A stretch of DNA of 64,000 bases from Candidatus Phocaeicola excrementigallinarum. Its GTDB lineage: Bacteria; Bacteroidota; Bacteroidia; Bacteroidales; Bacteroidaceae. A model generated the notes under the pieces. It ran no database searches. It was not told where the DNA came from and saw nothing but the letters and a program-made list of their open reading frames with translations. Shown here piece after piece: positions 2,975 to 60,777 of the stretch. Numbering within the stretch: the stretch's first letter is position 1; each line of letters starts with the position of its first letter. The stretch lies in assembly GCA_019120125.1 (NCBI GenBank), contig DWVR01000049.1:1-64000 (forward strand), written 5' to 3'. The position numbers and the translations under genes are program-made.

Positions 2975-3055
2975 AAACGTCCTTACGTTTTTTAAAAACG
3001 CTTCGACGTTTTGACCAAAACGCCTAGGCGTTTTAATGAAAACGTCTAGACGTTT
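2975..3055. repeat. Four-unit palindrome array A
   Basis: Four 16-bp palindromic units at 2975-2990, 2996-3011, 3018-3033 and 3040-3055. Their centres are 21, 22 and 22 bp apart. The third and fourth, AAACGCCTAGGCGTTT and AAACGTCTAGACGTTT, are perfect palindromes, flanked by further A/T pairs. The array lies between pullulanase and the ATPase gene, within what looks like one operon. It is the same element as at 22382, 46295 and 60697. Its function is unknown. Confidence 0.9.
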
Positions 3056-3105: not shown

Positions 3106-4554
3106 ATGCAGAATATAATTACAATTACGGACGGAGTGACCCGTAACCCTGCGTACAGAATGCGGGAACCGATCAACCTGCGGATTGCGGCAGGCGAACA
3201 CGTAGCCATAGTGGGACCGAACGGTGGAGGAAAGAGTCTGCTGGTGGACACCATCACAGGACGCTATCCGCTGCTGATGAACGAGGTAGTCTACGATTTT
3301 TCTCCCTCGGAATCGAAAATGGTGTGCGACAACATCAGGTACATCACATTCCGTGACTCGTACGGTGACTCAGATGCCACCTATTATTATCAACAGCGTT
3401 GGAACACGCACGACATCGACGACACGCCGGTGGTGCGCGACCTGCTCCCGGAGTGCAGGAACGAGGAATTGCGGAAAACGTTGTACGACCTGTTTGGAGT
3501 GGAGGCGATGCTCGACAAGCATATCATCCTGCTGTCAAGCGGAGAATTGCGCAAGTTCCAACTGACCAAGACCTTGTTGGGCGGTCCGAGGGTGCTCATC
3601 ATGGACAACCCCTTCATCGGGCTCGACGCCAAGACCCGCGACCTGTTGCAGGCGCTGTTGCGGAAACTGACCGCACTGACCAATCTGCAAGTGATTCTGG
3701 TACTCTCGAAGACGGACGACATACCCGATTTCATCACCCATGTGATTCCGGTGGAGAACCGTCATTGCGGCGGGAAGATCACCTTGCAGGAATATCTGGA
3801 ACGGCGTCCGGAAGTGCCCTCACATATTCTTTCCGAGGAGAAACGGCAACGGATTCTCAATCTGCCCTATTCCGGCAGCCTGTATCACACGGAGCATATT
3901 GTGGACCTGAACAAAGTGAGCATCCGATATGGAGAACGGACCATCCTGAAAGACCTGGACTGGAATGTGAGATGCGGAGAGAAATGGGCGCTGGGCGGCG
4001 ATAACGGGTCGGGCAAGTCCACCCTGTTGAGTCTTGTCTGCGCCGACAATCCGCAGAGTTATGCCTGCGACATCACCCTGTTCGGCAAGAAAAGAGGAAG
4101 CGGCGAAAGCATCTGGGAAATAAAGAAGCACATCGGATACGTGAGTCCCGAAATGCATCGTGCCTACCTGAAGAACCTGCCCGCCATTGATATAGTCGCG
4201 AGCGGTCTCCACGATTCCATCGGACTGTACAGGAAGATGAAGGAGGACGACCGTGCCGTGTGTGGGTGGTGGATGGACATATTCGGAATTGCCGGACTGA
4301 AGGAACGTAACTTCCTCCAGCTTTCCAGCGGAGAGCAGCGCATGGTGCTTCTGGCCCGCGCGTTCGTGAAAGACCCCGAACTGCTGATTCTTGACGAGCC
4401 GCTGCACGGGCTCGACATGCTTAACCGCCGTCTGGTGAAGGACATCATCGAGACCTTCTGCGAGCGAAAGGACAAGACCATGATCATGGTGACGCACTAC
4501 AAGGAAGAGCTTCCATCGAACATCACGCACTCCCTTTATCTGAAACGGAACTGA
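3106..4554 (+). CDS. Two-domain ABC ATPase, ModF-like
   Basis: Soluble 482-aa protein with two ABC nucleotide-binding domains in tandem and no membrane segment, the layout of ModF-like ATPases. NBD1 has Walker A GPNGGGKS (about 37-44) and signature LSSGELRKF, but its Walker B reads LIMDNP (about 166), with Asn where the catalytic Glu normally sits. NBD2 is intact: GDNGSGKST (about 298-305), LSSGEQRM and LILDEP (about 430). NBD1 may therefore bind ATP without efficient hydrolysis. No permease is adjacent, so the partner and substrate are unknown; molybdate is only a family-name association. Confidence 0.8.
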   Translation: MQNIITITDGVTRNPAYRMREPINLRIAAGEHVAIVGPNGGGKSLLVDTITGRYPLLMNEVVYDFSPSESKMVCDNIRYITFRDSYGDSDATYYYQQRWNTHDIDDTPVVRDLLPECRNEELRKTLYDLFGVEAMLDKHIILLSSGELRKFQLTKTLLGGPRVLIMDNPFIGLDAKTRDLLQALLRKLTALTNLQVILVLSKTDDIPDFITHVIPVENRHCGGKITLQEYLERRPEVPSHILSEEKRQRILNLPYSGSLYHTEHIVDLNKVSIRYGERTILKDLDWNVRCGEKWALGGDNGSGKSTLLSLVCADNPQSYACDITLFGKKRGSGESIWEIKKHIGYVSPEMHRAYLKNLPAIDIVASGLHDSIGLYRKMKEDDRAVCGWWMDIFGIAGLKERNFLQLSSGEQRMVLLARAFVKDPELLILDEPLHGLDMLNRRLVKDIIETFCERKDKTMIMVTHYKEELPSNITHSLYLKRN

Positions 4555-22381: not shown

Positions 22382-22463
22382 AAACGCCTGGACGTTTGGC
22401 TTAAAACATCAGGACATTTTACATGAAACGTCTTGATGTTTTGCCTGAAACGTCCAGGCGTTT
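22382..22463. repeat. Four-unit palindrome array B
   Basis: Units of 16 bp at 22382-22397, 22404-22419, 22426-22441 and 22448-22463, centres exactly 22 bp apart. Sequences include AAACGTCTTGATGTTT and AAACGTCCAGGCGTTT. Some positions are mispaired or wobble, so this copy is more diverged than arrays A and C. It lies in the 347-bp gap between GH20 and the MATE gene. Confidence 0.88.
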
Positions 22464-30501: not shown

Positions 30502-30523
30502 AGAGCCAAGAGGCCGTTTCAAG

Positions 30524-46294: not shown

Positions 46295-46376
46295 AAACAT
46301 CCCGGGATTTCAAGGAAAACATCGAAACATTCTTGAACAAACGCCGAAACGTTCCAGGCGAAACGCTTCGGCGTTT
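46295..46376. repeat. Four-unit palindrome array D
   Basis: Units at 46295-46310, 46317-46332, 46339-46354 and 46361-46376, all at exactly 22-bp spacing. The last (AAACGCTTCGGCGTTT) is near perfect; the first two are diverged (AAACATCCCGGGATTT, AAACATCGAAACATTC). This is the most decayed of the four arrays, but the period is intact. Confidence 0.8.
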
Positions 46377-60696: not shown

Positions 60697-60777
60697 AAAC
60701 GCCTTGACGTTTTGCCTCAAACGCCGAAGCGTTTTGAAAAAACGTCTAGGCGTTTTATCCGAAACGTCTAGACGTTT
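60697..60777. repeat. Four-unit palindrome array C
   Basis: Units at 60697-60712, 60719-60734, 60740-60755 and 60762-60777, spacings 22, 21 and 22 bp. The last, AAACGTCTAGACGTTT, is identical to unit 4 of array A. It lies between the lipoprotein gene and the convergent GH29 gene. Confidence 0.9.

Follow-up and report, generated by a model that had tools for sequence, protein, structure and literature searches.

Arrays of 16-bp units at a fixed two-turn step between genes of Phocaeicola and other Bacteroidales: possible helix-phased protein-binding rows with species-specific spelling

Introduction

A pullulanase-like gene that stops at 2914 and an ABC-transporter ATPase gene that starts at 3106 flank a row of four short units, with no assigned strand, in the window, by which we mean the whole 64-kb stretch of Candidatus Phocaeicola excrementigallinarum DNA analyzed here. 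This array A (2975..3055) consists of units at 2975-2990, 2996-3011, 3018-3033, and 3040-3055 with steps of 21, 22, and 22 bp, as a preliminary description had it: four 16-bp units, 21-22 bp apart. The locus raises the question of what such a row is for, and whether it is read as DNA or as RNA. Operator arrays and plasmid iterons are familiar examples of binding sites repeated in phase, at one or two helix turns. Other kinds of dispersed repeat are known between bacterial genes. REP/BIME elements and their RAYT (TnpA-REP) proteins, with GTAG- and CGTC-tagged REPs, are presented as dispersed, short, intergenic, and near gene ends (PMC3733652). The BrickBuilt MITE of Porphyromonas gingivalis is presented as tandem 23-nt repeats at dispersed intergenic sites, with a leader, a tail, and terminal inverted repeats (PMC4596501).

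Results

The preliminary description placed the same design at three other intergenic sites in the window. All three sites, like array A, do lie between genes, and two of them carry the design; the third is decayed. Array B (22382..22463, unstranded) has four units, starting at 22382, 22404, 22426, and 22448, two of them with arm changes; a GH20-type gene stops 88 bp upstream, and a MatE-family gene follows downstream. Array D (60697..60777, unstranded) has four intact units, at 60697, 60719, 60740, and 60762 (steps of 22, 21, and 22 bp), between convergent genes whose stops are 11 and 56 bp away. The decayed array C (46295..46376, unstranded) lies between two minus-strand genes. Its four positions have 3, 3, 1, and 0 mismatches, so that it is near consensus only at 46339 and 46361, and the units at 46295 and 46317 are doubtful. 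The window holds five chains if array C and a chance pair at 30504 are counted; both were dropped from the set of 98 arrays used below, in which units with three arm mismatches were trimmed.

We then counted arrays with the AAACG spelling of array A. A two-unit pattern with at most 3 mismatches matches at 260 places in the window's own 2.75-Mb genome (G000; 88 contigs), and exact adjacent unit pairs number 118; the reversed control gives 0 for both. Of 35 chains, found in the window and in 30 sampled stretches of this genome, 30 have four units. The 30 chains of P. mediterraneensis run slightly longer (17 with 5 units, 8 with 4, 4 with 6, and 1 with 7). The two sets of chains contain 226 steps, of which 222 measure 22 bp (208) or 21 bp (14). 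Thus, the constancy of unit number, length, and period under varying bases, first seen in the window, extends genome-wide (16-bp units, about four of them, every 21-22 bp), and the outcome named as fatal to it, few copies or no fixed arrangement, did not occur. Half-sites switch orientation about every 11 bp along an array. Centre words are few, 20 forms among 135 units of G000, beside varied spacers. They are mostly nonpalindromic, and none of 201 units is fully palindromic in a P. mediterraneensis genome (G007).

AAACG pairs occur in 13 of 60 relatives, all of them Phocaeicola and with the own genome counted, and in 10 of 251 genomes (2 of 30 genera) of a family sample. In a 20-genome subset, the counts were 106 for P. 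mediterraneensis P2644, 145 for An793, 23 for P. plebeius, 14 for P. barnesiae, 2 for P. coprophilus, 100 and 94 for two uncultured members, and 0 for the other 13. The genes flanking arrays in low-copy genomes are unrelated. At the gap of array A itself, no AAACG-spelled counterpart was found in 80 relatives except a weak pair at one locus (L084), with 2 mismatches in each unit. In IMG/VR, two stretches carry arrays, and open reading frames near them, named from their translations, pointed to nothing. An array on an IMG/VR contig (L163, 11525-11782) has 12 units at 22-bp steps in blocks of alike units with differing arms, and is possibly a record of local unit duplication.

Does the same geometry occur in other spellings? 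We searched with a wider pattern of 16-bp AAAS-N8-STTT units and a 5-6-bp spacer. Because arrays are found by pattern, the counts are biased toward intact arms; the wide class presupposes AAA/TTT edges, and the genomes were sampled rather than read whole. This pattern matches in 39 of 60 Phocaeicola genomes. At least 8 forward matches were found in 24 of them, where the reversed control gives at most 5 on a strand. It also matches 10 of the 23 genus members that have no AAACG pair (e.g., 121 matches in G015 and 85 in G002). At the level of the order, 22 of 198 sampled genomes match, other Bacteroidales families included. Arrays read in G061, G091, G324, G336, and G046, from four families, have 3-7 mostly dissimilar units at 20-22-bp steps, and 16 of 17 are clear of called genes, with 1 overlapping one; those of G325, G376, and G052 were not among the arrays read. 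Of 296 genomes sampled across the phylum, 11 match. Three belong to the own family, and the remaining 8 have a single site each apart from G520, which has more.

When the gap was allowed to range over 0-20 bp, the step was still 21-22 bp in all 50 listed pairs of G061 (126 in all), 11 of 13 pairs of G091, 10 of 12 listed pairs of G046, and 47 of 50 listed pairs of P. vulgatus (58 in all). These four genomes have unrelated spellings, and the step is common to them. Positions were listed in this way for G061, G091, and G046 and not for G324, G336, G325, G376, and G352. The free-gap reversed control is high in several genomes (69 against 126 forward in G061, 10 against 13 in G091, 7 against 29 in G046, and 44 against 22 in G352), so there the distribution of steps, not the count, is the evidence. 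With the fixed gap, the reversed pattern also matches (paired counts of 37/40 in G061, 65/71 in G482, 10/10 in G047, 8/6 in G399, 10/8 in G401, and 6/6 in G446). Three candidate members were rejected: the matches of G439 fall within a coding repeat, and those of G401 and G446 are uniform minisatellites. The reversed-control matches of G482 (65/71) and G352 (44) hint at arrays of another unit design in these two genomes. The search across Bacteroidales genomes that the preliminary description called for thus turns up arrays of the same geometry in several families, with species-specific spelling. Since the wide lexicon is common only in its AAA/TTT edges, a single conserved reader is not required.

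P. vulgatus ATCC 8482 has a spelling of its own. Four units (11 sites) and five units (5 sites) are commonest among the 20 sites read; two sites have 3, one has 6, and one has 2. Of 63 steps, 55 are 21 bp. Convergent genes flank 9 of 17 classified sites; one site, probably a chance match, is inside a called gene. Many of its arrays share one flank, lying at one end of larger dispersed repeats. Repeat family 1 (L269, L273-L278, L285, and L287) has roughly 280-400 bp in common on one side at 68-80% identity, and family 2 (L272, L284, and L286) has about 310-440 bp. About 100 bp from one array lies the Bacteroides sRNA BTnc005 (RF04178; L274, 2756-2948).

We next placed the 98 sampled arrays relative to genes, which were called by a simple script rather than a standard annotator. 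Overlap with a called gene never exceeds 25 bp. By the orientation of their flanking genes, 45 are co-directional and 31 convergent; another 15 lie in divergent gaps, and 7 were left unclassified. The co-directional arrays lie a median of 50 bp from the upstream stop and 188 bp from the next start. Convergent gaps are enriched among arrays (31/91 versus 20/217 array-free gaps of at least 30 bp; p=4e-7) and divergent gaps are depleted (15/91 versus 60/217; p=0.04). Mapping against gene orientation, another proposed check, therefore gives a preference for convergent gene ends. At five divergent sites Pfam backs both flanking genes, so the arrays are not solely 3'-end features. On the scale of the chromosome, the GC skew of P. 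mediterraneensis G007 (L133-L162 and L225-L237) flips near 2.15 Mb, which suggests a terminus there; as raw counts, the 43 sites read, which are all below 2.99 Mb, include only 5 in the first 1.0 Mb.

The arrays might instead be bidirectional intrinsic terminators, with units that pair in the transcript and outer A/T runs that give a U-tract on both strands. This is the main rival explanation, and we consider it unlikely on balance. The arrays resemble such terminators in gene-end placement, predicted folding, and, in the AAACG species, outward T-runs. Predicted RNA folding is strong in 10 arrays (z of -3.3 to -10.1), and 8 of 17 arrays in other genomes fold more than 2 standard deviations better than scrambles. 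A simple terminator rule on the sense strand holds at 58 of 78 array-bearing 3' ends versus 18 of 51 without an array. In three genomes, T-runs that point outward measure 2.3-2.4 at array ends versus 0.5-0.9 inside; downstream runs slightly exceed upstream ones in length (p=0.054), and divergent sites have shorter runs than convergent sites (p=0.03).

However, unit hairpins, if important, should leave compensated changes, and none were seen. The preliminary description spoke of paired base changes. In 135 units of G000, 201 of G007, and 91 of G022, Watson-Crick pairs at positions 6-11 number 52, 101, and 44 against 68.8, 112.5, and 56.1 expected for independent halves, and at 8-9 they number 19, 4, and 3 against 46.0, 78.4, and 33.2; at 7-10 they are at or below the same expectation. 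P. vulgatus has 9 against 32.7 at 5-12 and 5 against 27.0 at 8-9. Slight excesses occur at 7-10 in P. vulgatus (53 against 49.8) and at 8-9 in G061 (24 against 19.0). The arms are nearly invariant, so their pairing is uninformative either way. Thus, changes in one half of a unit are independent of the other half or run against symmetry, and paired structure is not supported.

Pairing between units was no better than in shuffles across arrays (z of 0.1 to 1.3 and below); against shuffles of order, z reached up to 2.2, in one genome. In G000, the first unit is fully complementary to the last (counting G-U) in 10 of 33 arrays; random pairs reach this in about 15% of cases, and adjacent and inner pairs have no such excess. 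No advantage of the sense strand was seen: G-U is not preferred over A-C (80 versus 91; p=0.44), and sense and antisense fold alike, with sense more stable in 25 of 45 (p=0.76). Folding persists when units are dealt randomly among arrays and drops when words are scrambled, so its strength is a consequence of the shared word list. In G061, 1 of 6 arrays beats its scrambles by 2 standard deviations and 5 do not; in the other-genome set the unit register is off by one base in some G324, G336, and G046 units, whose pair counts were left unused. RNA structure as the conserved feature was set aside on these tests of covariation, between-unit pairing, strand, reshuffling, and folding in other genomes. 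They lend no support to the selection for paired structure once proposed, nor do the strand tests to an mRNA-stability element.

Other observations also weigh against terminators. T-runs in P. vulgatus are not longer at array ends (1.58 versus 2.03). An apparent scarcity of separate terminators at array ends (8/91 versus 29/150; p=0.03) vanished after equal masking (7/78 versus 7/51). The 15 of 91 arrays in divergent gaps are out of place for a terminator, which needs no fixed two-turn step either. Unlike intrinsic terminators, then, the arrays combine a fixed DNA step with absent covariation, no strand preference, and presence in divergent gaps. Two further RNA candidates were examined. An outer inverted repeat, GCCGTTCCG...CGGAACGGC, around array A was rejected as a general feature, as permuted flanks pair almost equally (-22.6 versus -21.5 in G000; standard deviation, 0.7). 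Rfam covariance models found three tRNAs in the window and no family over the arrays; at P. vulgatus L274, L277, L278, and L284 they found only BTnc005, beside one array.

Comparison of related genomes bears on another explanation, a selfish or mutation-driven repeat, in which tandem units spread, are exchanged among harmless gaps, and are homogenized within each genome with no host function. We judge this rival, the next in order, to be fairly improbable. Its patchy presence, the lineage-specific gain at the array A site, the small set of centre words in each genome (20 forms for 135 units), and the many P. vulgatus arrays at one end of larger repeats are in its favor. So is unit number: of 13 orthologous arrays compared between P. 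mediterraneensis P2644 and An793, 6 have a different number of units. In this comparison, however, change has been slower in the arms (22 of 610 sites differ) than in 19 well-aligned flanks (438 of 3447); of the centre sites, 57 of 366 differ. Spacer length is kept as well. The 45 orthologous spacers have 80 substitutions and 1 length change, where 7.7 length changes were expected from the flanks (P=0.004), a figure inflated by one badly aligned flank; without it, the expectation computed by hand is about 5.3. Unit number stays near four. G000 arrays have no common ends or flanks: 12-mers recur in at most 2 of 33 flank sets, and in G007 in at most 3 of 43. By eye, about 8 of 33 sampled G000 arrays are at gene sites common to the two P. 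mediterraneensis genomes, and in the seven of these compared no unit is identical at the same place. A weaker repeat type, CCTCAAAAGTCTTC, lies beside several P. mediterraneensis arrays (flanks of L137, L144, L149, L153, and L161) and seems to extend an 11-bp A/T wave outward from them.

Also against a selfish repeat, a search of 60 genomes found no Y1 transposase (PF01797) in any of the 13 with AAACG pairs; the wider-class genome G002 has one match together with paired array counts of 85/88. This TnpA-REP-type search had been suggested as a check on a REP/BIME-like origin. The arrays are like REP/BIME (PMC3733652) in being dispersed, short, intergenic, and grouped by gene ends and unlike them in having no unpaired terminal tag, halves that do not covary, a fixed two-turn step, and about 4 units. 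Because the AAACG genomes have no such transposase and the stems do not covary, membership in REP/BIME is not supported. Like BrickBuilt (PMC4596501), the arrays are short tandem repeats between Bacteroidales genes; unlike it, those of G000 share no flanks, and thus they do not belong to a MITE of this type. The larger repeats of P. vulgatus stand outside that comparison.

Two weaker explanations remain. The units could be core sites of a site-specific recombinase, with half-sites flanking a 6-bp centre that matches between partners as arrays exchange units. A centre that must match between partners would make words few and not symmetric, and the few, mostly nonpalindromic centres beside varied spacers (0/201 fully palindromic in G007) agree with this, as do the unit replacement and insertion seen between sister species. 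The half-site, however, is only 5 bp, which is short for site-specific recombinases, and most of the 13 orthologous stretches keep their collinearity through the array; we regard this explanation as very unlikely. On our reading, a homology break or an indel of more than 1 kb starts close to the array in 4 of the 13 pairs (L225/L213, L155/L218, L227/L215, and L159/L208), and these breaks could mark rearrangement at arrays. Least probable of all is a shape element whose phased A/T tracts curve DNA with no specific reader: differing lexicons do have AAA/TTT edges at fixed phase, though the search pattern demanded them, and a wedge model shows no consistent excess of curvature over scrambled arrays (56 versus 45 degrees in G000, 42 versus 50 in G007, and 49 versus 40 in P. 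vulgatus).

Discussion

What is conserved in these arrays, over spacer sequence, is the arms and the length of the spacer, mostly with 4-6 units per array in the most-sampled species. The positions of half-sites, the step, and the low number of units are kept while spacer sequence and species spelling are free, a pattern that a protein reading one helix face would impose. Of the possibilities raised in the preliminary description, protein binding on one face of the helix thus appears, judged from the sequences, to be the best reading. Like operator arrays and iterons, the arrays are phased repeated sites, with half-sites in helical phase at a constrained step. They differ from those systems in having tens of dispersed gene-end copies, genome-wide respelling between species, and no known protein.

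We therefore propose, tentatively and at less than even confidence, that the arrays are helix-phased binding rows for a putative species-tuned DNA-binding protein and act as gene-end boundaries. The putative protein would bind inverted half-sites, about one helix turn apart, as double-stranded DNA, and would oligomerize along the array on one helix face. The bound array would be a roadblock to transcription from either side, preventing read-through, and array spelling would follow the changing specificity of the reader. We infer each of these steps: binding, oligomerization, the block to read-through, and the tracking of specificity by spelling. The boundary and roadblock role comes solely from placement.

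Several observations favor binding arrays: the 21-22-bp step in 222 of 226 cases and again with the gap left free, conserved spacer length, independent halves, no strand bias, and convergent enrichment. Against this reading count the strong RNA folding that is lost on word scrambling, the T-runs at array ends in AAACG species, a wide lexicon united by its AAA/TTT edges only, the bias of pattern searches toward intact arms, and the cognate binding protein, for which no candidate was found. Also against it count the 15 of 91 divergent arrays, the co-directional arrays of P. vulgatus, which lie 12 to 2383 bp from the stop, more than 200 bp in 6 of 7, and the many P. vulgatus arrays that are part of larger repeats. 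A broader claim, which we put forward as doubtful, is that the arrays are a Bacteroidales-wide boundary element at gene ends whose code is geometry rather than sequence (inverted half-sites in about four units, spaced by exactly two helix turns), with all units of a genome respelled together from one species to the next as they coevolve with a fast-changing DNA-binding partner.

We found no description of these arrays in the open-licence literature. Species-specific spelling lets them escape ordinary repeat searches, which may explain this. If the proposal is true, it would point to a new DNA-binding system in dominant gut bacteria, P. vulgatus included, and would make testable how Bacteroidales insulate gene ends and convergent transcription. 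It would also be a bacterial case of genome-wide coevolution of dispersed sites with their reader.
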